The notes beneath the pieces are model-generated. The model had not been told where the DNA came from, made no database searches, and saw only the letters and a program-made list of their open reading frames with translations. A stretch of 41,662 nucleotides of DNA from a virus: positions 1 through 41,662 of IMG/VR virus record IMGVR_UViG_3300027782_005501. One strand, given 5' to 3'. Both the position numbers and the translations under genes were made by a program. Position 1 is the first letter of the stretch, and every line of letters begins with the position of its first letter. Below are positions 2,670 to 34,868 of this stretch, piece after piece.

Positions 2670-2691
2670 GTTGTAAGGGTATTTTTAAGCA

Positions 2692-2731: not shown

Positions 2732-2736
2732 CTCAT

Positions 2737-3039: not shown

Positions 3040-4259
3040 TGCTGATAGAAGAAGTAATAAACGAGTTTAAAAGAACTCATCTGCAACACATAGAAGATAT
3101 TATTCTAACTGATGGTCACTCTGGTGGACAGGGTGTGATAGATTACTTCCAAGGCATACTGCAAACACTGCAGGGGTCAGCTGATCAACCCATCAACGTG
3201 TCAGTTAAATGGGATGGAGCTCCAGCCATAGTGTGTGGTATCAATCCTGAGAACGGCAAATGGTTTGTGGGTACTAAAGGTATATTTGCTAAAACACCCA
3301 AATTGAATTACACCAAAGAAGACATTGCTCGTAACCACGGCACAGATGATCTAGGACAAAAATTATTAAAATGTTTGGTGCATCTACAAAAATTAAACAT
3401 CACGGGCATAGTGCAGGGTGACTTTATGTTTGACCGAGATACACTAACAAGACAGAACATTAGTGGAGAAAATTGTATAACTTTTAAACCCAATACCATC
3501 ACATACGCAGTGCCTGAGAACAGTGACTTGGGCAAACAGATGTCTGCAGCACAGGTGGGAATCATATTCCATACCACCTACACAGGAGATACCATAGCCA
3601 ATTTAAAAGCTCAGTATGGTGCTGATGTGGCTGCATTCACTCGCACATCAGATGTGTGGTTTGACAATGCCACATATAAAAATGTCAGTGGCACTGCTAA
3701 TTTTACAAAAGAAGAACAACAGCAATTCACCACAGGCATAGAGCAGTTAAAATCCCTGTTGAACAGTGTGCCAAACAATCTATCAGCGATGCTGGGAGTG
3801 AACAAAGACTTCCTACCTTTCTTTATGCTATTCATCAATGATCAAATAAGACAAGGCAAAATACCCACAGATACCAACCAGTATCTAAAAGACTTTGCAC
3901 AATTCTATCAAGGCAGAATGCAACAGCAGGCAGCAGGATTGAAAGCACAGAAAGCTCTGCAACTGAGACAGCAGAAGATCAAAGACATGCCTCTATTTCT
4001 AAAACAGATGCAGAAGCCATTGGCTGCCATGATGGCATTCTATAAAGAAGTTATTGCACTTAAAAATTTAACACTGGCAAAATTAAACAAAGCCACAGCT
4101 ATTGGCACATTTGCACAGACAGATGCAGGATTAGAAGTGACTGATCCAGAAGGATTTGTAGCAGTGGGCACAGCAGGAGATGCAGTTAAATTGGTGGATC
4201 GATTGGGATTCAGCAGAAAGAATCTAACTGCGATCAATAAGTTTCAAAAAGAGGTTTAA
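3039..4259 (+). CDS. Nucleotidyltransferase/ligase-like protein (KxDG motif), phage conserved
   Basis: The 406-residue product carries VSVKWDGAPAIVCG (about residues 54-67), which fits motif I (KxDG) of the covalent nucleotidyltransferase superfamily (DNA/RNA ligases, capping enzymes). GTKGIFAK follows. IVQGDFMF (about 125-132) resembles motif III, and FKPN (about 149-152) may correspond to a later motif. The C-terminal half is helical and Gln-rich (LRQQKIKDMPLFLKQMQKPL). Similar proteins of unknown role occur in T4-like marine phages (possibly the DUF6267 group, from memory). It could seal or modify nucleic acid ends, but activity is unproven. Its 3' end overlaps the convergent glycosyltransferase gene by 26 bases. 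Confidence 0.65.
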   Translation: MLIEEVINEFKRTHLQHIEDIILTDGHSGGQGVIDYFQGILQTLQGSADQPINVSVKWDGAPAIVCGINPENGKWFVGTKGIFAKTPKLNYTKEDIARNHGTDDLGQKLLKCLVHLQKLNITGIVQGDFMFDRDTLTRQNISGENCITFKPNTITYAVPENSDLGKQMSAAQVGIIFHTTYTGDTIANLKAQYGADVAAFTRTSDVWFDNATYKNVSGTANFTKEEQQQFTTGIEQLKSLLNSVPNNLSAMLGVNKDFLPFFMLFINDQIRQGKIPTDTNQYLKDFAQFYQGRMQQQAAGLKAQKALQLRQQKIKDMPLFLKQMQKPLAAMMAFYKEVIALKNLTLAKLNKATAIGTFAQTDAGLEVTDPEGFVAVGTAGDAVKLVDRLGFSRKNLTAINKFQKEV

Positions 4260-9485: not shown

Positions 9486-9845
9486 ATGCGTTTCTCAGAG
9501 TTTCTCAACAGCACTAATAATGAATTAGAATCAGTGATTGTCAACACTCTACAAAATTTAAGAGGTGATGCTGACGAGCAAGGACAAACAGCAGAGATTA
9601 GTTTTGATGCTCTACAACAAATAATTAAAAACACAGGGTATGCCACTTTCAATTACAATCTATTCAAAAGCATACACGACAAAGGCACAGCTCTAAAGAA
9701 TGTTGTGGATGATTTTAATCAAGAAAAAATTGTGCTTAAAACAGAGAAGCAGGCAGAAAAAGATCCCGCAATGAACAAAGACAATATTGGCAGCACCGAC
9801 ACTGTAAAGAAAATGGCTCAAGCAGCCATGAAGAGAAGAAGTTAA
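9486..9845 (+). CDS. Small helical phage protein of unknown function
   Basis: The 119-residue product is polar and helical (MRFSEFLNSTNNELESVIVN) with a basic C-terminus (KKMAQAAMKRRS). It shares the RFSEFL-type start seen in many small T4-like marine-phage proteins encoded near structural genes. It has no cysteines and no catalytic motif. It ends with a 4-base overlap with the convergent radical SAM gene, so the late transcript ends near here, though no clear terminator is visible. Confidence 0.55.
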   Translation: MRFSEFLNSTNNELESVIVNTLQNLRGDADEQGQTAEISFDALQQIIKNTGYATFNYNLFKSIHDKGTALKNVVDDFNQEKIVLKTEKQAEKDPAMNKDNIGSTDTVKKMAQAAMKRRS

Positions 9846-11140
9846 ACGTTATCCAACCACTCAGCCACAAGAGGAAATAATTTTTTATAATCTGTTCCGC
9901 GTCTACGATCCAACTCTTCTAAATAGATTTTTAATTGTTTTTGTCTAGTAATGTTAGGTTGAGCCGTTGCCATTTCCATTGCTATACCATTCATATATAC
10001 TTTATATTGTTCTTTTACAGAATCTTTATAACCCGCAGCCATGGGATCAAATATGTCCACAGCTTGTTTTAATCCCAAAGATAACACCTTGTCCCCAAAT
10101 ATACCTGGATACATATAAGGTCTCCCTGGCATTTCTTTTTGATTACATTTCATCATACTCCAATACACCTGTTTGGTTTTGCTCCACTGATTAATTTGCT
10201 CAGCCAGTTCCGGCATGGTTTGAGCGCTGAGCAGTGAGAATGCACTGTTGATGTTGTTAGTAAAATCAGTATTATACACCATCCAATCAAAGTTTTTTTT
10301 GAATAACTCTAATTTTAGTCCGTTCCTGATGTATTCTGCTTGCGGCCCCCAACAATCTATACTGCCTATAACATTAATTTTATCCAAACGTTTTTGTTCT
10401 ACTAATTTTTGCAATCTCAACATCCAAGTTTTAAAACGTTCATGTTCCACAGTAAGATTAGAAAAAAAGACCAATGTTAAATTGGGCAAAGTTCTTTGTT
10501 CTAAAAATTCAATCATACGGAATGTTTCTTTTTGTAGAAACGGTTCTCCACCCAGTATCATCAATTTGTGTAAATCTTGTATATTGTTTTCAAACCACCT
10601 AAAAAGTTTTTCTGTAACTTCGTCGATCTTATCATACAATTTAAAATTGTCACCTATTCTAACACCATTTTGATCAAATAACCCAAAACGTTTTTCTTCA
10701 GCGTCGATACTAGAACTAAAATGTGCTGCACAATAGATACATTTTAAATTACAAGTGTTGCCCCAGTACACTTCCAATTGTCTAGGAGTAACTGAAACAG
10801 CAGTTAGGTCTGTATCTAACTCCGGAGGAGCAGTGGTACCTTCTAAATTTAAATGTATCATTCTGTCACTGGTTCCACCGGAATCTTCAATGTGTTTACA
10901 ATGCTCACACCCACGACCGGGCCATTTGCCCTCCAACATTTGTTGTCTTGCTAAAATTTTTGCAGGTAAATTATGAAAATTAAAATCATTTCCCTCCATT
11001 TCTATAGGGTCAAATTGTACTCGGTGACAAGAAGCAGAAGCACCCTCAGTCAAATACAGTGTAGAATGAGTCCATTTTAACTGACAAGGTAACCCCTTTT
11101 TAATAGGAAAAGGTTTAGGTGGTTGCTGTGATATTCCCAT
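9842..11140 (-). CDS. Radical SAM protein, phage twitch-domain type
   Basis: The 432-residue product has the radical SAM cluster motif CNLKCIYC (CxxxCxxC, about residues 132-139) in YWGNTCNLKCIYCAAHF, followed by LMILGGEPFL, the GGEP motif for SAM. The N-terminal part has a conserved Cys-His patch (SCHRVQF and RGCEHCKHIEDSGGTSDR), typical of the twitch-domain radical SAM proteins of marine phages and metagenomes. Such enzymes modify peptides or other substrates through a 5'-deoxyadenosyl radical; the substrate is unknown. It is transcribed divergently from the exonuclease gene, with a 16-bp palindrome between them. Confidence 0.85.
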   Translation of the reverse strand: MGISQQPPKPFPIKKGLPCQLKWTHSTLYLTEGASASCHRVQFDPIEMEGNDFNFHNLPAKILARQQMLEGKWPGRGCEHCKHIEDSGGTSDRMIHLNLEGTTAPPELDTDLTAVSVTPRQLEVYWGNTCNLKCIYCAAHFSSSIDAEEKRFGLFDQNGVRIGDNFKLYDKIDEVTEKLFRWFENNIQDLHKLMILGGEPFLQKETFRMIEFLEQRTLPNLTLVFFSNLTVEHERFKTWMLRLQKLVEQKRLDKINVIGSIDCWGPQAEYIRNGLKLELFKKNFDWMVYNTDFTNNINSAFSLLSAQTMPELAEQINQWSKTKQVYWSMMKCNQKEMPGRPYMYPGIFGDKVLSLGLKQAVDIFDPMAAGYKDSVKEQYKVYMNGIAMEMATAQPNITRQKQLKIYLEELDRRRGTDYKKLFPLVAEWLDNV

Positions 11141-18846: not shown

Positions 18847-20046
18847 ATGCTTGATAATAAAAATCCTTATTTTAAAAAGATCACATCTAGTGTACTAATC
18901 GATAGACAGATGATCGATTGGATAAAAATATACAAAAATCCTTATGCAAATTATTGGCAAGCTATATCAACGTTATTAGTAGGAGTAACAGATTTTAGAG
19001 CACGTAGCGGAAAATTTACTACTCCTTGGAATGCTACTAGTAATAAATTTTATGCTATGCCAAAATTTAAATTTATAAATGATAAATTTTCTAACCTAAT
19101 GGATCAAAGAGCTTTAGAGCTTTTTTTAAAGGCTAAAAGTCAAAATAAAAGAATAGCAATACTCTGGAGTGGAGGCATTGATTCGACTTGTGTACTAATT
19201 TCTTTTTTAAAAAATTTAAAAAAAGTAGATTATGAAAATCTTTCTGTTGTTTGTAATACCAGTTCTGTTCTAGAAAATTACAATTTTTATAAAAAATTTT
19301 TATCTAATAAAATTCATTGTATTCATTACAATCAATTGAATGTTAATAATGAATTTTTAGATGAATATATACTTTTACATGGCGATCCGGGTGATTGTTT
19401 ATTTGGTCCTAGCAGTTCAATGTACAAATATTTTATTAACAGAGGTGAACAGCTAAATCCATGGCGTAATCATTTAGTCAAAATGGCAGAATTATTAGAG
19501 CCTAGTTCGGTACATGGAATACACGCACCAGGGTTTGGTTCTTGGTTTACGAATAAAATTACACGCAATCTAGAAGAAAGTGGTCAAGCAGACTATATTA
19601 GCACCATTGCCGATTGGTGGTGGTGGACTTATTACAATTTTAAATGGGAATTTAGTTGTCAACGTCCTTTTTTCTATACTGAAAGAGATTTTAGTAAAAG
19701 TATTTCTACGGATAGGTTAGAAGAGTATTCTAAAAATGTTTTTTTTAATACTGAAAATTTTCAGCTATGGACTTATTCTAATTTAAAAAATCATATAAAC
19801 AAAGAATTTACTTTTCATAAAAAACCAGCAAAAGATTATATATTTGAATTTACAAAAGATGATGTATACAATAAAAATAAAACAAAGGTTAATGCATATT
19901 CTGGTAATTTTGATTATAAGATTAATTTTAGGTTTCCAATAGTCTATGATCAAAACTGGGTTGGTTATGGTCTCGATAGGCAATCTGCAGATTCTCGTTT
20001 ATTATCAAAAACTATAACTGTATTTTTAGAAAAGTATAAAGGGTAA
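18847..20046 (+). CDS. PP-loop ATPase, asparagine-synthase-like
   Basis: The 399-residue product contains SGGIDS at 108-113 (RIAILWSGGIDSTCVLISFL), the PP-loop of asparagine-synthase-type enzymes that activate a substrate as an acyl-adenylate. LHGDPGDCLFGP (about 180) resembles the second conserved region of AsnB domains. There is no glutaminase domain. The gene is very AT-rich and opens a three-gene run with a Rieske oxygenase (1-base gap) and a double methyltransferase (3-base gap), which suggests a small biosynthetic or modification pathway. Confidence 0.75.
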   Translation: MLDNKNPYFKKITSSVLIDRQMIDWIKIYKNPYANYWQAISTLLVGVTDFRARSGKFTTPWNATSNKFYAMPKFKFINDKFSNLMDQRALELFLKAKSQNKRIAILWSGGIDSTCVLISFLKNLKKVDYENLSVVCNTSSVLENYNFYKKFLSNKIHCIHYNQLNVNNEFLDEYILLHGDPGDCLFGPSSSMYKYFINRGEQLNPWRNHLVKMAELLEPSSVHGIHAPGFGSWFTNKITRNLEESGQADYISTIADWWWWTYYNFKWEFSCQRPFFYTERDFSKSISTDRLEEYSKNVFFNTENFQLWTYSNLKNHINKEFTFHKKPAKDYIFEFTKDDVYNKNKTKVNAYSGNFDYKINFRFPIVYDQNWVGYGLDRQSADSRLLSKTITVFLEKYKG

Positions 20047-20047
20047 T

Positions 20048-21091
20048 ATGTCGTATATTAATTTAAGCTGGAATCAAAGAACTCCTGAACAAGACAATTA
20101 TTTTTTTATTAACAGTACAAAATGTTTGGGATTAATTACAGATATTCAATCTAATCGACATTATGTACCTTATCCCCCAAATAATAGCATGTTTATTAAT
20201 AATAATTTTAAGGCATTTGTTAATTCTTGTCCCCATAAACACGCAAAATTATTAGAAGATAGTTGTAATACAAATAAAAAACTTGTGTGCCCAGTTCATA
20301 AATGGTCTTTTGACGAAGAAGGAAATTTTATAACAGGTCGAGGTTTTGAAAAATGCAAAGATAAAAACCTAATTTCCGCAGATATATTTCAGTGGCAAGG
20401 ATTTTTAATGTCGGGAAACAATTCATGGACTAACGAAATAAATGAAAAATTAAAAAATGATTTAAAATATTTTAAAAATAAAAATTACATTAATTGGAAA
20501 AGAGAAACAATAATAGCTAACTTCGATTGGAAAATATTTTACGAAACATTTTTAGATCTTTATCATATTCGTTCATATCATCCAGGATTAAGAAACATTG
20601 TTGATATAAATCAGTATGACTATGCATTTGGGGACGGATGGAGTTGTCAATACGCTCATCTTAATTTAATAAGAACAGAAAATTCTAGTAAAAAAACAGA
20701 TGCGTGGTTAAATGAGTGTAAAAAATTAGGATTATTAGATGATGATAGTTTTAAAATATTATGGTTAGGAATATACCCAAATGTAATGTTAGAATCATAT
20801 CCAGGCTGTACAATTATAAGTCAGGTATATCCTTATGCTCCAGGCAAACATGCTAATACATTAGAGTTTTATTTTGATCAAGAAGTATTAGATCGCAGCC
20901 CCCAATATGCTCAATTAACTTATGATTGTTGGATGGAAACAGCCCAAGAAGACGAAGTAATAGGAATATTAATGCAACAAGGTAGAAACAATTTAATTCA
21001 ATATAAAAAAGAAGTGCCCCAATTTGATCATCCTACAGAGGAGACAGCTAACACTCATTGGTTTGAATGGATGAAGAAAAAAAGTTTTTAA
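20048..21091 (+). CDS. Rieske non-heme iron oxygenase, alpha subunit type
   Basis: The 347-residue product has a complete Rieske [2Fe-2S] site, C61-x-H63 (CPHKH) and C81-x2-H84 (CPVHKW). It also has the mononuclear iron motif E-x3-D-x2-H-x4-H with E166, D170, H173 and H178 (ETFLDLYHIRSYH). This is the layout of ring-hydroxylating dioxygenases and related demethylases, which hydroxylate or demethylate small molecules with electrons from a reductase. No reductase gene is present, so host ferredoxin would be needed. The substrate is unknown; the PP-loop and methyltransferase neighbours suggest a tailoring role. Confidence 0.88.
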   Translation: MSYINLSWNQRTPEQDNYFFINSTKCLGLITDIQSNRHYVPYPPNNSMFINNNFKAFVNSCPHKHAKLLEDSCNTNKKLVCPVHKWSFDEEGNFITGRGFEKCKDKNLISADIFQWQGFLMSGNNSWTNEINEKLKNDLKYFKNKNYINWKRETIIANFDWKIFYETFLDLYHIRSYHPGLRNIVDINQYDYAFGDGWSCQYAHLNLIRTENSSKKTDAWLNECKKLGLLDDDSFKILWLGIYPNVMLESYPGCTIISQVYPYAPGKHANTLEFYFDQEVLDRSPQYAQLTYDCWMETAQEDEVIGILMQQGRNNLIQYKKEVPQFDHPTEETANTHWFEWMKKKSF

Positions 21092-21094
21092 TCT

Positions 21095-22558
21095 ATGAAT
21101 ATTTTTGAATCAGCAAGAGAGTTTGTCGACTTAGATAATAGAAAATTTCGAGATTTTAATATTTGTTCTGCTAGGAGTTTAACTAATAAATTACAAGTTC
21201 AATTAGATCCAGATTTAATTAAAAATAAAACCATTTTAGATTTAGGAAGTTGTTTAGGAGCAGCCGGACATTGGGCATTGCACCACGGAGCATCACACTA
21301 TACGGGTGTTGAATTACAAGATTATTATGCTGATACATCTCGTAAATTACTGAACAAATATTGGCCAACAAGTGTATTTGATATTATTAAAACTGATATT
21401 GAAAGTTTTTTAGATATTTGTATAAAAAATAATCAAAAATATGATTATGTTCTTATTGCTGGAGTCTTACAAGTATTTTTTAATACAATTGATATCTTAA
21501 AAAAAATAGCTAGTGTTACTAAAGAAATATTAGTAATTGATGCTATTAATCTTAAAGAAACTGATCCTAGATGGGGATTTATTCAATTTAAAAATATTTC
21601 AATGGTTAAAGCTGATGCAAATGTAACGGATAGTTATTACGGTCTTACAGCTACTATCAATTTAACTGCACTTGATATGATTATGTCTGTTAATTCGTTT
21701 CATCGTAAAGAAAATAAATTGCAACCTGCACATCACGGAGATGGATTAGATCCATATAATGATTTTGTACGTTTGGTCGACGGAACAATGGGAGCTCAAC
21801 GATACATTGTCAGATATACAAGAACTGATGTCTCAAAAACTATTTTGCAAGAAATGGTACTGAATGACGATACAACATCAATAATTAATTTTAAGGAGAC
21901 TCTGGATAGTTATTTTGAAAGTGCAGCAGAAAAAAAGATTTCAAGATGGGCCTTTGATTCTACTGTAGCTGACAGATTTCAACAGGAAGCAATGTATCAT
22001 ATACCAGATTATAGACGTGTAATAAACTTGTGTGTTGATATTGCTAAACACGAATTATCTAAAACAGATCCAATTATTGATGTTGGTAGTGCTTTAGGAT
22101 ATACACTTAATATTTTACATCATAGCGGATTTACAAATATTACAGGAGTAGAACAAAGTAAGGAAATGATTGCTAAAGGAACACAGTCTGATAAAGTTAT
22201 TTGTAGTGATAAATTCCCAAATAAAATATTTCAATTAGTTTTAATAAACTGGACTCTACATTTTATAGAAGATAAAGAATCTTACCTTAAAGATGTTTAT
22301 AATCATTTAAATAACAAAGGCATATTAATAATGACAGATAAAACAATACAATCAGAACTTATTAAAAATTTATATTATCAATTCAAAAGAAATAACGGCA
22401 TTGATCAAACCTACATTGAACATAAAGAAAAACAACTGGCAGGATATATGCATTTAAAGTCGGTTGATTGGTATATAAATTTTCTAAAGACTTTATTCTC
22501 TTCTGTTGAAATTATAAATTCTAATTTAGGATTTGTTACTTTTCTTTGTAGGAAATAA
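21095..22558 (+). CDS. Two-domain SAM-dependent methyltransferase
   Basis: The 487-residue product has two class I methyltransferase domains. Motif I of the first is TILDLGSCLGAAGH (47-59) followed by YTGVELQ. The second begins near 320 with PIIDVGSALGYTLNIL (326-341) and ITGVEQSKEMI. Between them is a linker of about 60 residues. Tandem domains suggest two methylation steps or one catalytic and one structural half. It ends the AT-rich plus-strand run and converges with the minus-strand hydrolase gene. Acceptor unknown. Confidence 0.8.
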   Translation: MNIFESAREFVDLDNRKFRDFNICSARSLTNKLQVQLDPDLIKNKTILDLGSCLGAAGHWALHHGASHYTGVELQDYYADTSRKLLNKYWPTSVFDIIKTDIESFLDICIKNNQKYDYVLIAGVLQVFFNTIDILKKIASVTKEILVIDAINLKETDPRWGFIQFKNISMVKADANVTDSYYGLTATINLTALDMIMSVNSFHRKENKLQPAHHGDGLDPYNDFVRLVDGTMGAQRYIVRYTRTDVSKTILQEMVLNDDTTSIINFKETLDSYFESAAEKKISRWAFDSTVADRFQQEAMYHIPDYRRVINLCVDIAKHELSKTDPIIDVGSALGYTLNILHHSGFTNITGVEQSKEMIAKGTQSDKVICSDKFPNKIFQLVLINWTLHFIEDKESYLKDVYNHLNNKGILIMTDKTIQSELIKNLYYQFKRNNGIDQTYIEHKEKQLAGYMHLKSVDWYINFLKTLFSSVEIINSNLGFVTFLCRK

Positions 22559-22568
22559 TTAATAAATT

Positions 22569-23300
22569 TTATTTGTGCTGCAATATAAAATTATTTATAT
22601 CTGCGGCTAAATCTTTTCTATATTCTTCTAACAAAATCCAATGACTAGCATTTGGATAAAATTTAACCACATTTTCTAGAAATTTAGAACGATGTTCTAA
22701 ATTAGAATTTTTTGTAAAAAAAATTTGTTTGGGCAAGGTTGATGACAACATTGTTGTTTTTCTTGCTAATCTTGGATATGATGCTGTGACAATAGTATCA
22801 CCAGCACATAATTCCTGTAGATGTTTTTTGAGTATGCTATCATCGATAGTGGCTTGATATTGTATTATTGATTGTGATATATTATCTTTAGATAGTTGTA
22901 TTTTGTCGTCGTTGTCTATTGATTCAGTTTTTATTTCTATTTTAACTAACGGATCTAGAAGTATTGCTGCCTTTAGATTAACATTTTTGATTACATCTTC
23001 AACAACTTTGCATCCATAACTATAACCCATAATAAAATCAATATCATACTGTTTTATTAGTTCTTCGGCTATTCTAACATTATCTTCGTGTTTATCTCCT
23101 ATAAATTCTGTCTTAGGTTGAGGACCTGATCCAACAATGTTAAAAGAATATGTTTCAATTCCATAATTATTCAATATTGTAGAAAAGTTATTTTCTATAT
23201 CTAAATCAAACATGCATTGGTTATGCCAAGTGGCACCCATAATGTATAATAACCGTGCTTTAGGGATTTTTGATACTGTATTGTTTTTAATATACACCAT
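22569..23300 (-). CDS. Alpha/beta hydrolase
   Basis: The 243-residue product has the nucleophile elbow GYSYG (92-96, Ser94), a likely acid within LLDPLVK (about 135) and a C-terminal His in NASHWILLEEYR (about 220). It lacks a signal peptide, so it acts in the cytoplasm. It is the last gene of the minus-strand TTT operon, 22 bases after the TctC-like gene. It could be an esterase or thioesterase that processes the imported or synthesised compound (inference). Confidence 0.75.
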   Translation of the reverse strand: MVYIKNNTVSKIPKARLLYIMGATWHNQCMFDLDIENNFSTILNNYGIETYSFNIVGSGPQPKTEFIGDKHEDNVRIAEELIKQYDIDFIMGYSYGCKVVEDVIKNVNLKAAILLDPLVKIEIKTESIDNDDKIQLSKDNISQSIIQYQATIDDSILKKHLQELCAGDTIVTASYPRLARKTTMLSSTLPKQIFFTKNSNLEHRSKFLENVVKFYPNASHWILLEEYRKDLAADINNFILQHK

Positions 23301-23321
23301 AGTTGATAATTTTAGAAATTA

Positions 23322-24170
23322 TTAATTATATGTTACGTAAAGTTTGGCAGTAGCTATAAATTGATCTATATCTGTTTTATTGGGAGCAATCTTACTACCA
23401 ACCATATCCTGTTGATTCATTGCAGTTGCAAAATCTTTTTGCAGTGATTTTTGTAATCGATCAATCTGCTCTGCAGATAAATTTTTAACGAATACCATCA
23501 TACCTAATTTATAATCATTCAATTGACTTTTTTCTGTAAATTCACTCAACAGTTTTTGACCATATTTGGTAGCACCGGTTGTGTAAAGACACTCTATAGA
23601 GCCAGACTTAATAGCACTGCCGACATTGCCTGTTGCTGTATAACCCACTTCTATTTCTCTGTTGATCAAGCCTGTTACCACAGCCCCCGAACTGTCGTAG
23701 GTTACATCTGTAAATTTAATTCCAAATTTATTGGTGTTGAGATGTTGTAGAATAGAGCCTTTGGGATTGAATTTATTGTTGCCTAATTTATAGGTTTTAT
23801 TTGGTTCTAATTTTGTACCCTTTAATACACACACGTCATATGGTGCATAGGTGACTGCTACCGCAGAAGCTTTTTCAAAATTGATAATACAGTTCTGTTT
23901 GGTAACTTCTGTATTTTTTATCATACTGTCGGACCATACAATCGCAACCGGTCCTTTGGCATTTTCAAAATAATCCACAGCTTCACCGCAACTGTTTTTT
24001 TGAACAGCAGTAATTTCAAATCCTGCCGATTTAGACAAATCTATCACAGCATTGGCAACCACACCTTGTGGTCCTTTAAGTGTTGATGTCGGCACAATTT
24101 CGATTTTTTGTGCCATGGCCACACTAGCCATTAACATCAATAAAAACGTGATTATTATTATTTTTTTCAT
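23322..24170 (-). CDS. TctC-like periplasmic substrate-binding protein 1 (TTT family)
   Basis: The 282-residue product has a clean Sec signal peptide (MKKIIIITFLLMLMASVAMA, cleavage after AMA). The fold-level pattern is that of TctC/Bug proteins: TYDSSGAVVTGLINREIEVGYTA (counterpart of the substrate loop), AIKSGSIECLYTTGATKYGQ (counterpart of the IKAG-LRALA block), then a C-terminal helical pair. It is shorter than usual (~320) and diverged. A TctA-like permease gene sits 14 bases upstream in the operon. It is a paralog of 25502-26347 (shared KSGSI, YTTG/YSTG, KNLS). The ligand is likely an organic acid. Confidence 0.75.
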   Translation of the reverse strand: MKKIIIITFLLMLMASVAMAQKIEIVPTSTLKGPQGVVANAVIDLSKSAGFEITAVQKNSCGEAVDYFENAKGPVAIVWSDSMIKNTEVTKQNCIINFEKASAVAVTYAPYDVCVLKGTKLEPNKTYKLGNNKFNPKGSILQHLNTNKFGIKFTDVTYDSSGAVVTGLINREIEVGYTATGNVGSAIKSGSIECLYTTGATKYGQKLLSEFTEKSQLNDYKLGMMVFVKNLSAEQIDRLQKSLQKDFATAMNQQDMVGSKIAPNKTDIDQFIATAKLYVTYN

Positions 24171-24184
24171 AGTTTCCCCTTTTG

Positions 24185-25462
24185 TTAAAAATAAATTTGT
24201 ATTGCTCTGTAAGTAGTATAGTATATTTCATCGGTTAAAAGCAAGCCTATTACCACTGCTAAAAGGTCTGTCCTAAAAAAATGCAATAGATAACCGATGG
24301 GCATAAAAATTACTAGATGTATTAGCAAATATTTTAAATCATAAGAGTTGATTAGATAAAAACATAGTAAACTGAATAAAAATAAAAGATAAGAAAACCA
24401 TTTTTTAGACATCAACTTACCGAATAACACATAATATTTTTGATTTAACATAGTAGCTATTAAAAAATAAATTAATCCTGATAAAAGAAGACATAAAATT
24501 ATTATAGTACTAACCCCATACGCCTGTAAGAATTCAAAATTTAAATTAAATTTTTGAAAATGTTGAATCAGCACAATTTCCGAAGCACTGATAGGTATAC
24601 CGAACAATAGCAAAGGCAACCACCCTGTTATGGCAGCACTGTTATTAGCAGTTTCACTGGCCGTAATTTTATCTAATGCTGTGTTCTTTCTAAGTCGTTC
24701 AAAAGTATAAGAAGCATAACTGCTGATCGTTGCACCTATCTGAGGCAATAGTCCTAATACACAACCAAATAAGCTGTGCAATGAAATTTTCCCTATATAT
24801 TTTTTTAGTTCTAATTTTGTTTTGTCTCGAGATAAAGATTGAGCCGAAGCTGCAGGGATTTTTTGCCACAATAATTGAGATACAAAAATTATTATCAAAA
24901 TCAATTGAGTGTTGAAATAATAAATGGGAATAGATTGTGCATGAGTTTTTCCTATAGCTGCGAACTCGGGATAAAAGTTTATGAAAGTTGCAGTCGTTAA
25001 TACACAAATATTTGTTAGTATTTTTCTATTTGAAAAGATTGCAATTATTACTAATAACCAAAAGATTGAGAGTTTGAGCAGTATAGGAAAATAGATATTT
25101 TTTGAAAAATTATAAAATAGAACTATAAACAGAATTATAGATGATATAACAGTGGCAACAAGACTACCAATGTTGGTCAACATGACTGCTCTAAACGTAT
25201 CTTTACCTTTTAAATTTTTTAATTCCATTAATACAGGATAAGAACTGGCTTCCCCTGGGATCTTTAGATATAAGACGGCCATACTGCCAAAAAATTGTGA
25301 TCCTATTCTAGCAATGATGCCATACAATACTATACATAACGGATCTAAAGGAACAAAGGGTAGGAATAACATGAATCCTAGCAGTATATTGATACCGGGC
25401 ATTAGCCCAGTTAATAAACCAGACAGAATACCCAAACAGAATGTAAAAAATATATCAATCAT
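24185..25462 (-). CDS. TctA-like large permease subunit 1 (TTT family)
   Basis: The 425-residue polytopic membrane protein has both TctA half-signatures. The first is GILSGLLTGLMPGINILLGF (11-30) followed by GSQFFGS and IPGEASSYP. The second is SLFGCVLGLLPQIGATISSY (around 225-245) followed by ASETANNSAAITGWLPLLLFGIP. Known TctA proteins form the transport channel of tripartite tricarboxylate transporters, usually ~500 residues and paired with small TctB. No tctB is present here, so the host would supply it or it is not needed. It is a paralog of 26379-27656. Confidence 0.85.
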   Translation of the reverse strand: MIDIFFTFCLGILSGLLTGLMPGINILLGFMLFLPFVPLDPLCIVLYGIIARIGSQFFGSMAVLYLKIPGEASSYPVLMELKNLKGKDTFRAVMLTNIGSLVATVISSIILFIVLFYNFSKNIYFPILLKLSIFWLLVIIAIFSNRKILTNICVLTTATFINFYPEFAAIGKTHAQSIPIYYFNTQLILIIIFVSQLLWQKIPAASAQSLSRDKTKLELKKYIGKISLHSLFGCVLGLLPQIGATISSYASYTFERLRKNTALDKITASETANNSAAITGWLPLLLFGIPISASEIVLIQHFQKFNLNFEFLQAYGVSTIIILCLLLSGLIYFLIATMLNQKYYVLFGKLMSKKWFSYLLFLFSLLCFYLINSYDLKYLLIHLVIFMPIGYLLHFFRTDLLAVVIGLLLTDEIYYTTYRAIQIYF

Positions 25463-25501
25463 ACAATATAATCGCAGCTCATGGCATTCTTTATTCCACT
25501 G

Positions 25502-26347
25502 TCAATCAAGATATTCTGCAGACTTAGATCTCTTAATGAAACCAGTCACCGCTTCTTTGGACGGTGACATTATCGTCTCATCAATATGTTGTAGAGATAA
25601 CTTAGTTGACAAAGACCGGATTGACTGCATAAGTTTTTGTTCATCCGTAACTGATAAATTTTTAACAACGAACATGAAAGAAACACTTTCATGATTTACA
25701 AACGAATCTCTACCTGTAAATTCTTTGAGTGGGTTTTGCTGGAATTTAGAAGAACCGGTGCTGTATGGACAATTGATCGATCCGCTCTTGATTGCTTCTG
25801 CCGCCACGCTCAAAGACATCAATCCTACATCGATATCTTTATTGACCAGTGCCTGTAATATCTCATCGCTGCTGCTGAAAAGAACATGTTTGAATCTTGC
25901 ATCTAACACATTCTTGTTCATTTCTTCTGTAATGGAATTGTAAGGACTGAACTTAACTATGCCCAATGTGGCAATTCTGTTGATGGGTATGCTGTTATTT
26001 TTTTTCGTGCAGACTTCTTGTGTGGCATGAGCAATGAAAAGTATTTTGGCAGAATCAAAATCGTCTACCACACAGTCTTGATTACTAGTCCTAGACAGTC
26101 GATATTGATTATGAGATATCAAGATAGCAGACGGTGTTCGAGCATTCTTAAATTTCTGCACGGCACTGCCACAATTCACACTTTGTATGGGATTGATCTT
26201 GATATTGCTCGACTGTGCCAACGCCGCCACTTGATTCGTGATAATCACAGCAGGTCCTTTGCTGGTTAGATACGTTTGAATTTCTGTAGCTCTCAATAGT
26301 GAAGATAGAGACATCAAACACAGAATAAAGATTATAAGTTTTGGCAT
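25502..26347 (-). CDS. TctC-like periplasmic substrate-binding protein 2
   Basis: The 281-residue product has an N-terminal signal sequence (MPKLIIFILCLMSLSSLLRA). It is a paralog of the TctC-like protein at 23322: CGSAVQKFKNA matches CGEAVDYFENA, AIKSGSINCPYSTGSSKFQQ matches AIKSGSIECLYTTGATKYGQ, and VVKNLS matches FVKNLS. It lies between the two TctA-like genes, 31 bases after TctA 2, so each permease is followed by its own binding protein. Shared cysteine positions suggest a conserved disulfide. Ligand unknown. Confidence 0.72.
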   Translation of the reverse strand: MPKLIIFILCLMSLSSLLRATEIQTYLTSKGPAVIITNQVAALAQSSNIKINPIQSVNCGSAVQKFKNARTPSAILISHNQYRLSRTSNQDCVVDDFDSAKILFIAHATQEVCTKKNNSIPINRIATLGIVKFSPYNSITEEMNKNVLDARFKHVLFSSSDEILQALVNKDIDVGLMSLSVAAEAIKSGSINCPYSTGSSKFQQNPLKEFTGRDSFVNHESVSFMFVVKNLSVTDEQKLMQSIRSLSTKLSLQHIDETIMSPSKEAVTGFIKRSKSAEYLD

Positions 26348-26378
26348 AATTTTAAATATTTAATATAGTTTATTTCCT

Positions 26379-27656
26379 TTAAAAATAAATTTGATATAGT
26401 TGCATGAATGTGAAGAATATTTGATTGCTTAATAACAAGGCCACAGTGATTACCAGCATGTTGGTGCCTAACTTGTAGAACAACCAACCTAGGGGAACAA
26501 ATACTAGTAAATGCACGAACACTATATCCCAACCAAAGTTATTCATGGTTGCATATGTAAAGAGACTCAATAATATCACAAGCATGCTGAACAGAGGATT
26601 AGTGATAAATCTACTCAACCCAATGTAAAATGCACGATTTGTTTTTAAAGCAATTAAAAAATAACACACAGCGGATAACAAGCACAACACCATGACCACA
26701 AGAATAGCTTCTGTCTTTGACAATGATTGTATGCTGAACCCATACTGATTAAAGTGTTGCAAAAAAACAATCTCTATCGAAGTGATCGGCATGCCGAACA
26801 CCAGTAACGGCAACCAGTTCGCTACCACAGCAGAGTTGTTTGACGTCTCCGAAGCTGCTACTCTTGATAATGCTCTACTGCCACGCAACTTCTCAACACC
26901 ATAACTGACATAACTAGCCACTGTGGCTCCTATCACAGGAATGAGACCAAGACACATGCCCAACAAACTGTGACCTATAAATTTTTTGTACCATTTGCTG
27001 AGCAAGAATGTTTTGATCTTGTTCACAGACGAGGTGTTTATCTTCTTTAGAGATAATGCATCAATAAGGAAATATGAAGAAAATAAAACGATCAATGAAT
27101 ACAATGGATCAAAATAATATATGGTTAGACCAAACTTAATATTGGCAGCAATGTCACTGTAATTGGCGAAGAACATCACAATAACAAAGCCTAACAAGTT
27201 GGACAATGTTTTTTTGAAAGGGTAGAAAAGTGCCATTCCCAGCAACAGGGCGAAAATCGTTGCTTTGACATAGATAGGTAATACCACGTGATTAAACAAT
27301 CCTGTGTACAACAATACCATCATGGCGGCCAAAGCCAACACTGTGGCGAACAGACTGCCATGAGCGGTGATCTCTACAGCCTGATAGATTTTTTTTGGTG
27401 TGTCAAAATTCTTAGATTCCATCAAAACAGGAAAGCTGCTGGTCTCCCCGGACATGCGATAGTAAAATGCTGCTTGGCTGCCAAAGAATTGAGAGCCTAT
27501 ACACACTGTCATTGCAAAGATCAACAGGCTAACAGGGTCATTAGAAACCAATGGCAACAACAGCAGAAATCCCAGCGTGGGAGTGATACTGGGCATCAGG
27601 CCCACAAAAATCCCTCCAATCAATCCCATCAACATGGCACAGATATATGCTATCAT
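26379..27656 (-). CDS. TctA-like large permease subunit 2
   Basis: The 425-residue product is the same length as, and clearly homologous to, the protein at 24185. It has GLIGGIFVGLMPSITPTLGF (PG replaced by PS), GSQFFGS, SGETSSFPVLMESKNF, then LLGMCLGLIPVIGATVASYV, AASETSNNSAVVANWLPLLV and FGMPITSIEIVFLQHF. Its ATG overlaps the PP-loop stop (ATGA, 27653-27656), which couples translation of the two. G-to-S in the first half-motif and the different second loop suggest a different substrate from TctA 1 (inference). Confidence 0.85.
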   Translation of the reverse strand: MIAYICAMLMGLIGGIFVGLMPSITPTLGFLLLLPLVSNDPVSLLIFAMTVCIGSQFFGSQAAFYYRMSGETSSFPVLMESKNFDTPKKIYQAVEITAHGSLFATVLALAAMMVLLYTGLFNHVVLPIYVKATIFALLLGMALFYPFKKTLSNLLGFVIVMFFANYSDIAANIKFGLTIYYFDPLYSLIVLFSSYFLIDALSLKKINTSSVNKIKTFLLSKWYKKFIGHSLLGMCLGLIPVIGATVASYVSYGVEKLRGSRALSRVAASETSNNSAVVANWLPLLVFGMPITSIEIVFLQHFNQYGFSIQSLSKTEAILVVMVLCLLSAVCYFLIALKTNRAFYIGLSRFITNPLFSMLVILLSLFTYATMNNFGWDIVFVHLLVFVPLGWLFYKLGTNMLVITVALLLSNQIFFTFMQLYQIYF

Positions 27657-28750
27657 AAGATATAATCCTTGGACAAAGAACCCACCAATCCTTGATCGTG
27701 TGTGTCGTTGTTGAACCAGTTTTTTGGCAGTTTGCGAAGTGACTCGTATATCTTCATTATCTTTTTCTTGCTGTCAGTGTTGCTGTCATAAAGCCATTGA
27801 TCCCTGCGACCAAACACATTGGATTGAGGACGCCATGTGTAATACAGGTTTTCATCACACTGGGGGTAGATCATCCTTTGCGCAGGCAAGTAATCGTGAT
27901 CCAACACGATGCCTAGGTCTTGGTTCTTGCGATTCTTGGAATGCGTGTCTATCAGATCCTTGTTGGAAAGCCAAAAGTTTTTGATAATCTGTGCCTGCTT
28001 GATCACTAGTTCGGGACAGTCCGGGCTCCAATAGAACCATTCTACACCGCTGTCTTGGATAATTGGCCTGTTAGTATTGCCAATATCTGAAAAATTAAAA
28101 ATAAACTCATCGTTTTTGAAACGTAGGCGGGGTTTCTCATGACCATACATAATTCCTACATCAGACTCTCTATATTTTTTTGGTAGTTTTGATTTAATAA
28201 AAGACCTGCTGAGAGAATTGGGAGCAATGTATCCAGGTATATAATACAAATATTCATCATATAGCTGTTCAATGACATTGAGAGACAAGTCGGTTAGATC
28301 TAATCTAATTAATTCTGTTTGTGGTATTAATGGCAATAGTTTTTGTAATCGCGGCCATGTCTGTAATCGCCATTCTTGATTGATATCCGATTCATTGTTA
28401 TCGTGATCTACAGAGTAATAGAAACACACAACTGCGTCAAGATGTATGTTGTTGTTTACAAAAGTTTTTAAGATGTTGTTTGAATCAAATCCACCGCTAT
28501 ATAACAATACGAGATATTTGTGTTGTGACCGTAATTGCTCTGCTCTTTTTTTATACAAACTATCTATATTCTCTTTTATCTCCTTTTTCCAGTCATATGA
28601 TGAGAATACTTCATCGTGGAAATGATAAGAAGGCCAACCTTTGTATCTCTGTGCTAATTCTAGTGCTTCAATCTTGCTAAAAGTTTCAACGATCTGTTGA
28701 TTATGATTTACTCTATAGAACCCGTATTTTTTATCTACGTAAAACATCAT
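27653..28750 (-). CDS. PP-loop ATPase, first gene of the TTT operon
   Basis: The 365-residue product has SGGFDS at 85-90 after HKYLVLLY, the PP-loop of the asparagine-synthase/PAPS-reductase superfamily. It is a paralog of the gene at 1077-2150: SKIEALELAQRYKG vs SKLEAIEWSQRYK, and VEWFYWSPDCPELVIKQAQIIKNF vs IEGFYWSPDAPLIPIKQSHVIMNF. It is less AT-rich than that copy. It is the first gene behind the promoter at 28807-28835, with a 4-base overlap to TctA 2. It probably activates a carboxylate, perhaps one moved by the transporter; this link is inference. Confidence 0.75.
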   Translation of the reverse strand: MMFYVDKKYGFYRVNHNQQIVETFSKIEALELAQRYKGWPSYHFHDEVFSSYDWKKEIKENIDSLYKKRAEQLRSQHKYLVLLYSGGFDSNNILKTFVNNNIHLDAVVCFYYSVDHDNNESDINQEWRLQTWPRLQKLLPLIPQTELIRLDLTDLSLNVIEQLYDEYLYYIPGYIAPNSLSRSFIKSKLPKKYRESDVGIMYGHEKPRLRFKNDEFIFNFSDIGNTNRPIIQDSGVEWFYWSPDCPELVIKQAQIIKNFWLSNKDLIDTHSKNRKNQDLGIVLDHDYLPAQRMIYPQCDENLYYTWRPQSNVFGRRDQWLYDSNTDSKKKIMKIYESLRKLPKNWFNNDTHDQGLVGSLSKDYIL

Positions 28751-28806
28751 GTTAGTCCATGGTATTAGTGCTTGTGTCTACACACTCACGGACGGCGTTC
28801 TGTAGT

Positions 28807-28835
28807 ATACTACAGTAAAGACATGATACTGTCAA
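28807..28835 (-). promoter_or_regulatory. Sigma-70-like promoter of the TTT operon
   Basis: On the minus strand: TTGACA (28835-28830), a 17-base spacer, TAGTAT (28812-28807). Transcription should start near 28800, leaving a leader of about 50 bases before the PP-loop ATG. It is host-type rather than late, so the operon is probably expressed early. Confidence 0.7.
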
Positions 28836-28948
28836 GCGTCGATAAAATCCGACGTCGCATGAAGCGGCGTTGCAAATGTATTTAATTGATGTTTACCCAG
28901 TCTAAATATTTTATAGACTTTTTACCATTCCGTGTTATACTAACACAT
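28836..28948. other. Intergenic region between TTT operon promoter and tRNA
   Basis: The stretch has no coding sequence. It contains CGACGTCG, an 8-base palindrome (about 28849), an AT-rich part, and the tRNA promoter at its right end. No terminator or repeat was identified. Confidence 0.5.
28914..28941 (+). promoter_or_regulatory. Promoter of tRNA-Arg
   Basis: TAGACT (28914-28919), a 16-base spacer and TATACT (28936-28941). The tRNA begins 7 bases after the -10 box, so transcription would start at or next to base 1 of the tRNA, giving little or no 5' leader. Confidence 0.6.
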
Positions 28949-29510: not shown

Positions 29511-29835
29511 ATAGGCGATGATGCGTTTGTAATAAACAATACGGACCGGGCTCGATGCCCGCACCTCCACCAAAGTTATTATTGGTGGCTTATGTAATCC
29601 CTACCGGGGGTGACATGTTTCGACGTATGTCTAAAGAATCGTGGAGTTTATCAGTTAGGTACCCTGTAAAGGTCCAAAACTATAAATGCTACTAAAAAAG
29701 CATTTGGATTCGCTGACTTAACAGTTGGTAGATCTAAAATGAGATTAGCTGCTTAATAACCAGCTACCTCGGCGGTGATGACTTCCGTGGCAACAGAAAA
29801 GTCACAACCGTGGGGCTCGCAAGAGCCCTATGGGA
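29511..29835 (+). ncRNA. ssrA: tmRNA, circularly permuted two-piece form
   Basis: The acceptor piece comes first: a T-arm region (GGGCTCGATGCCC) and CACCTCC-A-CCA ending at 29572. After an intervening segment, the 5' end of the coding piece, GGGGGTGACATGTTTCGACG (29606 on), pairs its GGGGGTG with CACCTCC as a 7-bp acceptor stem with one G-U. The tag frame reads ..KAFGFADLTVGRSKMRLAA followed by TAA TAA, a ClpXP-type LAA end; the resume codon is uncertain. TAGCTG/CAGCTA (helix 5) flanks the stops and a GNRA hairpin GGGCTC-GCAA-GAGCCC closes the 3' part. Outer ends are approximate. Confidence 0.88.
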
Positions 29836-30250: not shown

Positions 30251-31498
30251 TTACAAAAAATAATTTATATATTTTAATCCTAAAAGACAACGAGGTTCTA
30301 TGTGACCATCAATTTTAGCTCTATCAATTTTATGTTTCATATGAATTAATCCTTTAGTTTCTATTCTTTTTTTAAAATCGATACCTAACATACTGTTGTC
30401 TATATCTTTTATTTGTAGATTTTTAGAACTATCACATATCCCCCAATTAAAATTTTCTGTAGTTATAAGAGGATCTAATTCGTGTTTAACGTTGTCATAA
30501 ATCATAGAGCGTATTAGTTCAGCATCTCCCACAAAGTTGGGATCCATATCTCTAATATCAACAAACGGCAACATCTGCATGAGAGAAATATCTGAAATAG
30601 GAGACAACATATGAGAAAAAACTTTGTTATTCCAAGATCTACTGTAAGGCTCTATAAAAGAAATAGTGTTGTGATCTAAATCTATAGGAGTATTCCAATC
30701 AATACTATTATGACAGCTAGTCACGTAAATATTTTTTCTTGTGGCAGGTTTACCCAAACGTTTGAGACACTCCCATTTATGAAAGAGTACAGAATTCCCT
30801 TCATTGCCGATTAATATTGTTTTATCTTTAAATTTTTCAGCTACCCAATGACTTTGATAATTACGAAACTTAAAAGGATTGGATTGGTTAGCATAATCTA
30901 TTAATGCTTGTTTTGAAACATTTATAGATTCTATATTCAATCCTAGACTTTTTTCTAAATCAAATCGTTTTTGTTGAATAATATTATCGGTATTTTCATT
31001 ATAACAATAAATCAGTGGTGTATCTTTTAATCTGTTGTATTTGATCAAATAACTTATGAGTAATATAGAATCAATTCCTCCACTATAGAGTAATATCATA
31101 TTTTTAGAATTGTCAAAAAGATTTTTAACATTATTTTCTATTCTATTTTTAGCTGTTTGAATATACTGTTCTAAAGGTATGGTATGTTGAGGTAACGTCT
31201 CTATTATTATAGATCCCTGTGACTCTTTAAAATTTAGATAGAAAGAAGGAGCCTCCCAATCTTTAAAAACTGTATGCTTTAAATGAGTGTTATTAATCCA
31301 TGGAAATATATCTGGAGAATGACAGATCGTATGATCCACCTTGCAATTAGAATCTTGCATCAGTTGTTCCAATGTTCTAGCAGTGATCTTATCATTGTCT
31401 ATCTTGATTAAAACATCATAGTTTCTGCCGTTGGTGACTGTGTGGTTGTTCAACAATTCTTTGGTAATATTATCTGTAGGGATAAAACTTTTTTGCAT
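30251..31498 (-). CDS. PP-loop ATPase, asparagine-synthase-like
   Basis: From ATG 31498 the product is 415 residues, with SGGIDS at 139-144 (NMILLYSGGIDSILLISYLI), the PP-loop of the asparagine-synthase superfamily. The N-terminal 120 residues are unlike the other three PP-loop proteins in this window. DILRD-like acidic motifs occur later (DIRDMDPNFVGDAELIRSMI). I chose 31498 because the ATG at 31585 would cross a plus-strand late promoter and gene. The gene is AT-rich. Substrate unknown. Confidence 0.7.
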   Translation of the reverse strand: MQKSFIPTDNITKELLNNHTVTNGRNYDVLIKIDNDKITARTLEQLMQDSNCKVDHTICHSPDIFPWINNTHLKHTVFKDWEAPSFYLNFKESQGSIIIETLPQHTIPLEQYIQTAKNRIENNVKNLFDNSKNMILLYSGGIDSILLISYLIKYNRLKDTPLIYCYNENTDNIIQQKRFDLEKSLGLNIESINVSKQALIDYANQSNPFKFRNYQSHWVAEKFKDKTILIGNEGNSVLFHKWECLKRLGKPATRKNIYVTSCHNSIDWNTPIDLDHNTISFIEPYSRSWNNKVFSHMLSPISDISLMQMLPFVDIRDMDPNFVGDAELIRSMIYDNVKHELDPLITTENFNWGICDSSKNLQIKDIDNSMLGIDFKKRIETKGLIHMKHKIDRAKIDGHIEPRCLLGLKYINYFL

Positions 31499-31550
31499 TA
31501 TATGAATATTTAATAGCGTTATATGGTTAGATATAATTTTATTAGTCATA

Positions 31551-31558
31551 CTTAAATA
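31551..31558 (+). promoter_or_regulatory. Possible late promoter
   Basis: CTTAAATA lies 27 bases upstream of the ATG at 31585, with CAGGAG in the leader. It matches the AAATA core but has T instead of C afterwards. Confidence 0.5.
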
Positions 31559-31584
31559 TTGCGCCAAACAACCAGGAGCGTGCA

Positions 31585-31773
31585 ATGGAAGACAATAAAA
31601 ACATCATAGAACAACTGCAAGAAAAAATAGAGAAGTTGGAGTCTGAAATGGACAACATCAAATCCGTGTTAGAAATACAGGATGAAGATGAGTTCGATTA
31701 TGATTCTGATGAGGATGATATTGAAGACCTTGAAGACGGCGACGAAGTGGACGAAGATGAAGACAAAGACTAA
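31585..31773 (+). CDS. Small acidic coiled-coil protein
   Basis: The 62-residue product has an N-terminal coiled coil (IIEQLQEKIEKLESEMDNIK) and an extremely acidic C-terminal half with about 20 Asp/Glu residues (DYDSDEDDIEDLEDGDEVDE). Such tails often mimic DNA or bind basic proteins; a small scaffold or inhibitor role is possible but unproven. The stop is followed by a triple GACTAA repeat. Confidence 0.65.
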   Translation: MEDNKNIIEQLQEKIEKLESEMDNIKSVLEIQDEDEFDYDSDEDDIEDLEDGDEVDEDEDKD

Positions 31774-32783: not shown

Positions 32784-34868
32784 ATGAAGATTATAACACC
32801 CGATTGTGATTATATTCAGGACATAGAAAAATATAAAAAAAATCTTAAGCATTTAAAACCGGGTAGTAGAGTATTAATTTTTAGATCTGATCCTGCAGGT
32901 ATTTCAGAAGCGTTGATAGGTAATTGGGAATTAAATTTAATATCTATTCCTGTTGAACCTTACTTAACTCCACAAGCTACAATAGAATTTATAAAAAAAG
33001 AGTGCTCTCCTCATGTAATAGTACATTGTACAGATACAAAAAATATTTTTGAATTTTTAGATGGAGGAGAGTTATCACCGGTAGAAGATTATGCAATATT
33101 CTATACGTCAGGAACCACAAGCAATCCAAAAGGAGTGGTACAAACAAGAGAAGCAATGAAATACAATGCAATAGCAGTAGCAGAATTACACGAATTTAAT
33201 AAAAATTCTGTACATCTAACAGCATTACCTTTGTATCATTGCAATGCTGCAGCAATGAGTTTGTTTGGCAATTATTTCATGAATGGCACAGCAGTATTTC
33301 TTAAAAAATTTAAACCAGAAACATATTTCGAATATTGTGAAAAATATCAAGCAGGCACAGCCAATCTAGTACCAACAATGATAGCAGATTTATTAGAAGC
33401 TAAATTAAAATGGCCCACTCAACTTAGATATGTATTAACAGCAGCCACAGCATTAAGTCAAGAAATTTGTAAAAAATTTTATAATCTATATGGATCAAAA
33501 TTAAGACAAGGCTACGGATTAAGTGAAGCAATTAATTTTTCATTCACAATGCCTTTACTCAATGACATAGAATTTAAAAAACACATGGTAGACAATTATC
33601 CTGCAGTTGGTCTACCTATACCAGGAACAGAATTTAAAATAGAGAATGGAGAAGTATTTGTTCGAGGACCAAACAATATGAGATGTTATTGGAATAATAA
33701 AATAGCTACAGAAGAAACTATAATCAATGGTTGGATAAAGACCGGCGACAAAGGAGAACTTCGAGATGGATTTTTAGTGCTTACTGGTCGTTTTAAAGAA
33801 ATTATTATAAAAGGTGGCGACAACTATAGTCCTGTAATGATAGAAGACGAATTTAGACGATCAGGAATAACAGGAGATATTGTTGTGGTAGGATGTAAAG
33901 ATAATAGACTTGGAGAAGATATTGCACTAGTAGCAAACAAATATCAAAAAATAAACATAGACAATAAAAAGTTACAACCTGCTTCTGTGCGTTATGGAAA
34001 TATACAGAGAACACAAACAAAAAAACCTCAAAGAAAATTAATGTCTAAAGGTATGGTGTCTATGTCTTTGCCCACAGAAGAATATAATAATACTCTTAAA
34101 TCAGCCGGAAGAATTGCGGAAAAAATTATTCTTAAAACTCCCACAACACCACAACAAAAATATCTTTATAACATATCTAAAAAATTAATAAAAAATGCCG
34201 GAGAAGAAAACTGTTATAACTCTGTTAAACCTTTTTTTAACGCAATAGAATCTAAACTTGATGTTTTTTGGAATGGAGATTTAAAAGAACACATATTTAA
34301 AGGCATGACCAAAGAATGGGAATCTTTAATGAATGACACACCTATGGGAGGTTTTCCTAAATTAGCACATCAGTTTTGTTTAGAAAATAATTTGTATCAA
34401 GGAAAAATTTTAGAAGTTGGGGCAGGCGTTGGAAACTTTAGCAAATATATTCCTGCAGGAGTTGATTATATTCGCAGCGATTTAAAAAGCAGTTTTTTAA
34501 AAGGAGATTATAAAAATGAAATAATATTAAACATAGATGATCCTTATACTATAGACAACGCTTTTAATATGATTGTTGGAATTAATGTTTTTCATTGTGC
34601 AAAAAATAAACAAAAAGCCATACAAAATGCTTATAATAACTTGCTACCAGGAGGATATCTACTGTTAGGAGAAGGACAAGCCCCTGGAGATGTATGGGCA
34701 TTAGATATATTGTTTGGTTTTATCGATGGCTGGTGGAATCGGGGTGGATTTATAGATAGATATAAATGGTTAGATATGTTTAATGTTTTATCGCCGTCAG
34801 AAATAGGATATTCTGTTTATCGTGAAGGTAAGTATGATTTGGGAGGCATACTCTGGTTAAAAAAATAA
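32784..34868 (+). CDS. Fusion of ANL adenylation enzyme and methyltransferase
   Basis: The 694-residue product has an acyl-CoA-synthetase/NRPS-type adenylation domain (about 1-400), with YTSGTTSNPKGV (107-118), QGYGLSEAINFSF, TGDKGELRDGFLVLTGR and IIIKGGDNYSP. The AMP-forming C-terminal subdomain is shortened. A methyltransferase domain follows (about 500-694): motif I ILEVGAGVGNFSKY (542-555) and LLPGGYLLLGEG. No carrier-protein serine motif was found. The combination resembles parts of NRPS/PKS-type assembly lines; it would activate an acid and methylate it or a partner. It is followed after one base by a 2OG oxygenase. AT-rich. Confidence 0.85.
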   Translation: MKIITPDCDYIQDIEKYKKNLKHLKPGSRVLIFRSDPAGISEALIGNWELNLISIPVEPYLTPQATIEFIKKECSPHVIVHCTDTKNIFEFLDGGELSPVEDYAIFYTSGTTSNPKGVVQTREAMKYNAIAVAELHEFNKNSVHLTALPLYHCNAAAMSLFGNYFMNGTAVFLKKFKPETYFEYCEKYQAGTANLVPTMIADLLEAKLKWPTQLRYVLTAATALSQEICKKFYNLYGSKLRQGYGLSEAINFSFTMPLLNDIEFKKHMVDNYPAVGLPIPGTEFKIENGEVFVRGPNNMRCYWNNKIATEETIINGWIKTGDKGELRDGFLVLTGRFKEIIIKGGDNYSPVMIEDEFRRSGITGDIVVVGCKDNRLGEDIALVANKYQKINIDNKKLQPASVRYGNIQRTQTKKPQRKLMSKGMVSMSLPTEEYNNTLKSAGRIAEKIILKTPTTPQQKYLYNISKKLIKNAGEENCYNSVKPFFNAIESKLDVFWNGDLKEHIFKGMTKEWESLMNDTPMGGFPKLAHQFCLENNLYQGKILEVGAGVGNFSKYIPAGVDYIRSDLKSSFLKGDYKNEIILNIDDPYTIDNAFNMIVGINVFHCAKNKQKAIQNAYNNLLPGGYLLLGEGQAPGDVWALDILFGFIDGWWNRGGFIDRYKWLDMFNVLSPSEIGYSVYREGKYDLGGILWLKK

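Follow-up and report, generated by a model that had tools for sequence, protein, structure and literature searches.

Behind a structured, covarying leader RNA, the window, by which we mean the whole 41,662-nucleotide stretch of viral DNA analysed here (IMG/VR record IMGVR_UViG_3300027782_005501), carries a six-gene operon with two pairs of transporter genes and a gene for a PP-loop enzyme. We lean towards reading it as a late phage operon in which a candidate riboswitch governs the uptake of one kind of small molecule and its modification by the PP-loop enzyme. A preliminary description of the same DNA had listed six minus-strand genes, and the open reading frames are found in the order it gave:

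22569-28750, minus strand: operon of six open reading frames, encoding PP-loop ATPase, TctA 2, TctC 2, TctA 1, TctC 1 and hydrolase
28879-28886, minus strand: T4-type late promoter-like octamer ATTAAATA, ending 4 nt before the RNA, two mismatches
28769-28874, minus strand: structured leader RNA of ~110 nt, 95 bits with our covariance model R1, covarying, no Rfam match
27653-28750, minus strand: PP-loop ATPase, 365 aa, with the invariant SGGxDS motif, starting 18 nt after the RNA
26379-27656, minus strand: TctA 2, permease, 425 aa, Pfam TctA (E 7.5e-37), in a phage clade with 100/100 support
25502-26347, minus strand: TctC 2, periplasmic binding protein, 281 aa, 33% identical to TctC 1, aligned family A5
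24185-25462, minus strand: TctA 1, permease, 425 aa, Pfam TctA (E 2.1e-34), 38% identical to TctA 2
23322-24170, minus strand: TctC 1, periplasmic binding protein, 282 aa, AlphaFold2 pLDDT 87.6, best Foldseek match Bug27/TctC
22569-23300, minus strand: putative alpha/beta hydrolase (GYSYG), PHROG esterase match (1.7e-4)

The leader RNA folds as a closing helix with six hairpins and bears the conserved letters GCAACGCC...GACGUCGG...GACGC...UUUAC...AACGCC...CCGU...AGC; other phages conserve this region, likewise ahead of these genes. When 19 distinct copies were aligned with MAFFT, without guidance from the structure, 92.7% of the cells were paired, where shuffling left 76% and sliding of the partner strand 25-43%, and 80 double changes were counted against 24±4 in shuffles, with 16 of the 25 pairs showing such changes. 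For the non-redundant copies known from uncultured phages, at least 43, in an alignment that was fitted to the structure, 95% of the cells are paired and 240 double changes stand against 79 in shuffles. Single-sequence folds are not clearly more stable than those of shuffled sequences (z -1.5 to +0.1), which is common for riboswitches. A contact between two hairpin loops, GG with CC, is weakly supported, and neither a terminator nor a ribosome-binding-site switch was obvious in the leader. We rejected a DNA operator as the explanation of the 16-bp palindrome at 28800-28815, which belongs to the RNA because homologues replace its sequence while keeping the pairing and because it is part of the set of seven helices.

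On whole phage contigs of up to 349 kb, R1 finds one copy per matching contig, always at a PP-loop/receptor locus, and it has no match in 1.06 Mb of bacterial TctA loci. Two copies are seen in L269, one before TctC and one before DctP. No family of Rfam 15 exceeded its gathering threshold, and for two copies nothing relevant appeared up to E 10. Under strict filters and without a positive control, the RNA had no match in 754 proteobacterial genomes of two classes, and the PP-loop profile none in 369 genomes of the Pseudomonas class. Cultured phages gave no match to the PP-loop enzyme, TctC or the RNA (the last searched by blastn), and for TctA only weak matches in unannotated or bacterial records. 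Weak, shortened variants with a different middle precede porin-like genes in L218 (2684-2773) and L234 (6061-6145) and perhaps form a related subclass.

The preliminary description had placed the operon behind a single sigma-70-like promoter, and this claim did not hold. The window does contain the hexamers TTGACA (28835) and TAGTAT, but these belong to the 5' strands of two hairpins of the RNA, P2 and P3, and both are replaced in sequence in homologues; the number of sigma-70-like sites in the scan (39) is within the range of shuffles (31±7). Directly upstream of the RNA stands another kind of signal. An octamer similar to the late-motif consensus TATAAATA ends 4-5 nt before the RNA in 38 of 43 copies (at least 43 are known), and 28 of the 43 have at most one mismatch to it, as do 2.3% of background stretches. 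We take this octamer to be a T4-type late promoter, with a start a few bases downstream. Since the motif lies 4-5 nt before it, the RNA is the expected 5' end of a late transcript, and the operon is probably expressed from a T4-type late promoter, presumably late in infection.

Downstream, the start codon mostly follows within 10-70 nt of the RNA. The loci of the first 20 copies had been fetched by PP-loop or TctA/TctC, so that their association with the PP-loop gene is partly circular; a scan by the 5' sequence of the RNA alone added at least 23 further non-redundant copies. Behind these, the first gene encodes TctC in seven cases, DctP in six, the PP-loop enzyme in three and TctA in one, that is, one of these four types in 17 of 23 copies (at least 23 being known), while DUF2061 followed by PP-loop occurs in two and another gene in four. 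Among 40 first genes, Pfam assigns ten to TctC, nine to DctP, three to DUF2061, two to TctA and one each to Porin_4, MFS and NMT1 (ABC). The MFS transporter, the porin and the ABC receptor with its permease are single cases, each with a PP-loop gene within four genes after, and a few copies precede a TauD dioxygenase, a fatty acid desaturase or an unknown gene. The core that stays constant consists of the RNA and the PP-loop enzyme, with transporters that can be exchanged. Because unrelated families of organic-acid receptors stand behind one RNA, we argue that they share a ligand class. As read from the genes, porin, receptor, permease and enzyme would form a route of uptake and modification. 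Two marks by which riboswitches are recognized are found together here, a conserved covarying structure in a 5' leader and downstream genes of one metabolic theme.

Other RNA and translation genes were seen nearby. Permuted tmRNAs are already known from phages, and a two-piece one, which ARAGORN missed, lies in the window at 29517-29756 (plus strand; 86.7 bits with tmRNA_permuted of Rfam). Some 650 nt separate it from the leader RNA, and a tRNA-Arg(TCG) lies between the two. Permuted tmRNAs also lie right behind RNA-controlled receptor genes in L142, L152 and L269, and those of L152 and L269 score as the betaproteobacterial type. Just upstream of the leader RNA of L010, a gene resembling ribosomal protein L7/L12 was noticed by eye (2670-3182); ribosomal proteins of phages are known.

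The PP-loop protein has no Pfam match, its SGGxDS signature is invariant in nine homologues, and Foldseek recovers, as a weak match, the fold core of NAD synthetase, beta-lactam synthetase and LarE. It thus shares motif and fold core with the PP-loop ATP pyrophosphatases (NadE, beta-lactam synthetase, LarE, TtuA), whereas it forms a family of its own with an N-terminal extension and a structural match that is weak outside the core. Relatives are encoded by 373 viral stretches in a family scan, 80 of which were kept. In half of the loci a TctC gene lies within three genes of the PP-loop gene, often overlapping, and in some a DctP gene does. With near copies removed, it is directly adjoined by 22 TctC genes, compared with 4.0 in shuffled gene orders, in a test whose TctC profile had been trained on PP-loop neighbours. 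For this reason we ran it again on whole contigs with the TctC profile of Pfam; about half of 49 virus contigs have a TctC above the cut-off, and the PP-loop gene adjoins 3 of ~11 TctC genes outside the seed windows (on three contigs); it is found beside TctC both inside and outside these windows. TctA is present in a minority of cases. Since TctC also occurs without PP-loop beside other enzymes in the same phages, for instance, by eye, a ring-hydroxylating dioxygenase-like one, the link is strong, not exclusive. The ATGA overlap of 4 nt with TctA 2, from which the preliminary description had linked the ATPase to the transported compound, is present at 27653/27656, and the adjacency to TctC is a much stronger tie.

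Of the alpha/beta hydrolase that had also been named, the gene stands, but its identity rests on the weak PHROG match and it is absent from the sister operon of L004. It is probably on the same transcript and lies outside the conserved module.

Several further enzymes of these phages caught our attention. The window contains another full PP-loop paralogue (1077-2150, minus strand), and an SGGIDS motif occurs in two other proteins (18847-20046, plus strand; 30251-31585, minus strand), so that the phage may carry four PP-loop proteins. It also encodes an AMP-binding ligase fused to a methyltransferase (32784-34868, plus strand), a Rieske ring-hydroxylating oxygenase (20048-21091), a radical SAM protein (9842-11140) and a double methyltransferase (21095-22558), which look like a small-molecule pathway in the phage. 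In the RNA-controlled operons of L136 (8423-10000) and L218 (3274-4932, judged by the start of its sequence), a tryptophan halogenase-like gene directly follows the PP-loop gene.

Both 425-aa proteins match PF01970 with 127 and 119 bits at a cut-off of 28.9, in agreement with their description as TctA. The 281- and 282-aa proteins have no significant match in Pfam or NCBIfam, PF03401 included, but the AlphaFold2 model of TctC 1 has Bug27 (E 6e-12) and a Polaromonas TctC (3e-11) as its top Foldseek matches, with TM values of 0.66-0.68. TctC 1 by its predicted fold and TctC 2 by its identity to TctC 1 would thus qualify as TctC receptors, as had been proposed, and both start with a hydrophobic, signal-like segment, read from the sequence, where signal peptides had been claimed. 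The reported absence of TctB is likewise borne out, PF07331 having no match in the window or in 10 related phage records even at E≤1, and we therefore speak of a TctA-TctC system, not of a full TctABC. With TctABC and Bug systems it has in common the permease family, the receptor fold and the pairing of receptor and permease; it differs in that TctB is missing, the receptors are beyond detection by Pfam and NCBIfam, the system is phage-borne, its permeases fall in a clade of phage sequences only, and two tandem pairs accompany a PP-loop enzyme.

Other phage TctC genes also encode signal-like N termini, whereas phage DctP proteins have none. Since they have no signal peptide, the DctP-type receptors of L152, L118 and L144, whose genes adjoin PP-loop genes, are probably cytoplasmic. 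In several large phages (L193, L196-L200), TctC lies beside small P-loop-like proteins starting with GxPGSxW, without PP-loop. In L025 (7484-9971) and L028 (9250-10916), two divergent TctA-TctC pairs flank genes for two or three proteins that resemble fatty acid desaturases and one that resembles dCMP deaminase, as judged by eye.

As the families of TctA and TctC are bacterial, one might suspect bacterial DNA or a chimeric contig. We find this barely credible. The contig is that of a T4-like phage and encodes NrdA, NrdB, DNA ligase and exonuclease, and a protein with 39% identity to its counterpart in HTVC008M and cyanophages. The same operon is present on L004, a contig of a second metagenome, where the proteins are 61-88% identical to those of the window, and L010 has a smaller module of PP-loop, TctA and TctC near NrdB. 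Between the window and L004, dN/dS is 0.06-0.08 in genes with unsaturated synonymous sites (0.06 for TctC 1), between the window and L009 it is 0.13, and raw pN/pS is 0.15-0.31 where synonymous sites are saturated. The operon is under purifying selection, including the two paralogous TctA-TctC pairs, whose active use the preliminary description had argued for, there on two substrates where our reading has one kind of compound. In a tree with several long branches elsewhere, the window TctAs fall into an all-phage clade of eight members (support 100/100), and in a pattern scan covering 84,980 species, each by one genome, the best bacterial TctAs share 20-28% identity with the window TctA, with one short segment at 33%. 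L015, L018 and L019, picked up by a TctA pattern scan, proved to be chance matches. Given the copies in L004 and L010, the selection, the all-phage clade and the distance of the bacterial TctAs, we regard the operon as a property of the phage and reject a chimeric contig.

Genes, RNA structure, position relative to the late motif, gene association and purifying selection are computed results; from here on we infer late timing, ligand binding, transport direction, substrate class and the reaction of the PP-loop enzyme. An RNA polymerase bearing the phage's late factor would start at the T4-type late promoter just before 28874, and the messenger would open with the folded RNA, which most likely binds a small molecule or its product and sets downstream expression in a riboswitch-like manner. 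The TctC proteins would bind the compound in the periplasm, TctA would import it without TctB, and the PP-loop enzyme would use ATP to activate it, most probably at a carboxylate, in preparation for amide or thio chemistry. In other phages the same RNA stands before TctC alone, a probably cytoplasmic DctP, or an MFS, ABC or porin gene. Organic acids are the ligands of most TTT and TRAP receptors, and a carboxyl or carbonyl group is what a PP-loop enzyme usually adenylates; a carboxylate is thus our best guess for the compound, based on knowledge of the families.

The RNA might instead be a leader bound by a phage or host protein, or a stabilizer of the messenger, that coordinates late expression of uptake genes without any ligand. 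A role in stability or translation would agree with its link to a late promoter, its place at the 5' end and the lack of a recognized expression platform. However, most of the genes downstream encode importers of small molecules or a metabolic enzyme and are not late genes in general, the structural genes of the window have similar late-motif sites upstream and no RNA copy, and L235 has two RNA copies in tandem. We consider this account unlikely, though worth keeping in mind.

Rather less probable, in our judgement, is that the transporters are ordinary auxiliary genes feeding host carbon metabolism, with an unrelated PP-loop enzyme that is merely co-operonic. Nutrient transporter genes of phages are known, and tctA domain hits occur on SUP05 virus contigs (PMC4164917); yet PP-loop and TctC/TctA occur together in several gene orders in divergent phages, and other transporter types stand behind the same RNA leader. 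The binding proteins could also act outside transport altogether, as decoys, as parts of the virion, or in chemical signalling among infected cells, with the PP-loop enzyme making the signal and the RNA sensing it. Many copies indeed have receptors without a permease, the DctP proteins lack signal peptides, and late expression would fit a role in the virion or in signalling, but both receptors of the window come with matching permeases under selection, and we think this quite improbable. We retain the reading as a late operon for uptake and modification under a candidate riboswitch.

No description of the RNA or the module was found in the open-access literature searched, subscription papers and preprints lying outside it, and the statement that no phage system with this gene set had been described agrees with this. 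The SUP05 report shares with ours a TctA on a virus contig; there, it is a 'domain hit only' (PMC4164917), cited by one review, and no receptor pair, PP-loop enzyme or RNA is described. A glutamine riboswitch with a permuted tmRNA has been reported from Melnitz-like phages and pelagimyophages (PMC9004378), and in a pelagimyophage study standard tools found no riboswitches. The glutamine riboswitch and our leader are both regulatory RNAs of T4-like phages that infect aquatic bacteria, and a permuted tmRNA is also present in our window. In contrast to the glutamine riboswitch, which is tied to the tmRNA gene (PMC9004378), our leader RNA precedes importers, differs in sequence and structure, and matches no Rfam family, those of glutamine riboswitches included. 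Bacterial uptake and salvage operons under riboswitch control likewise have a 5' leader with a conserved core and covarying helices before unrelated transporter families, whereas the RNA described here is without an Rfam match, has so far been seen only in uncultured phages and starts at a T4-type late promoter.

In summary, transport genes of phages are usually read as borrowed host genes, their control not being known. Here, a strongly covarying RNA marks a common regulon across uncultured phages, whichever transporter is used. Tentatively, and as slightly less likely than not, we propose a new, phage-confined class of riboswitches, late leaders that would sense a compound which is imported by interchangeable transporters, modified by a dedicated PP-loop enzyme and possibly also a chemical signal among infected cells. 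The RNA is thereby a handle on which compound phages need late in infection, and since RNA, receptors and enzyme can share one ligand test, one positive result would answer for the others.
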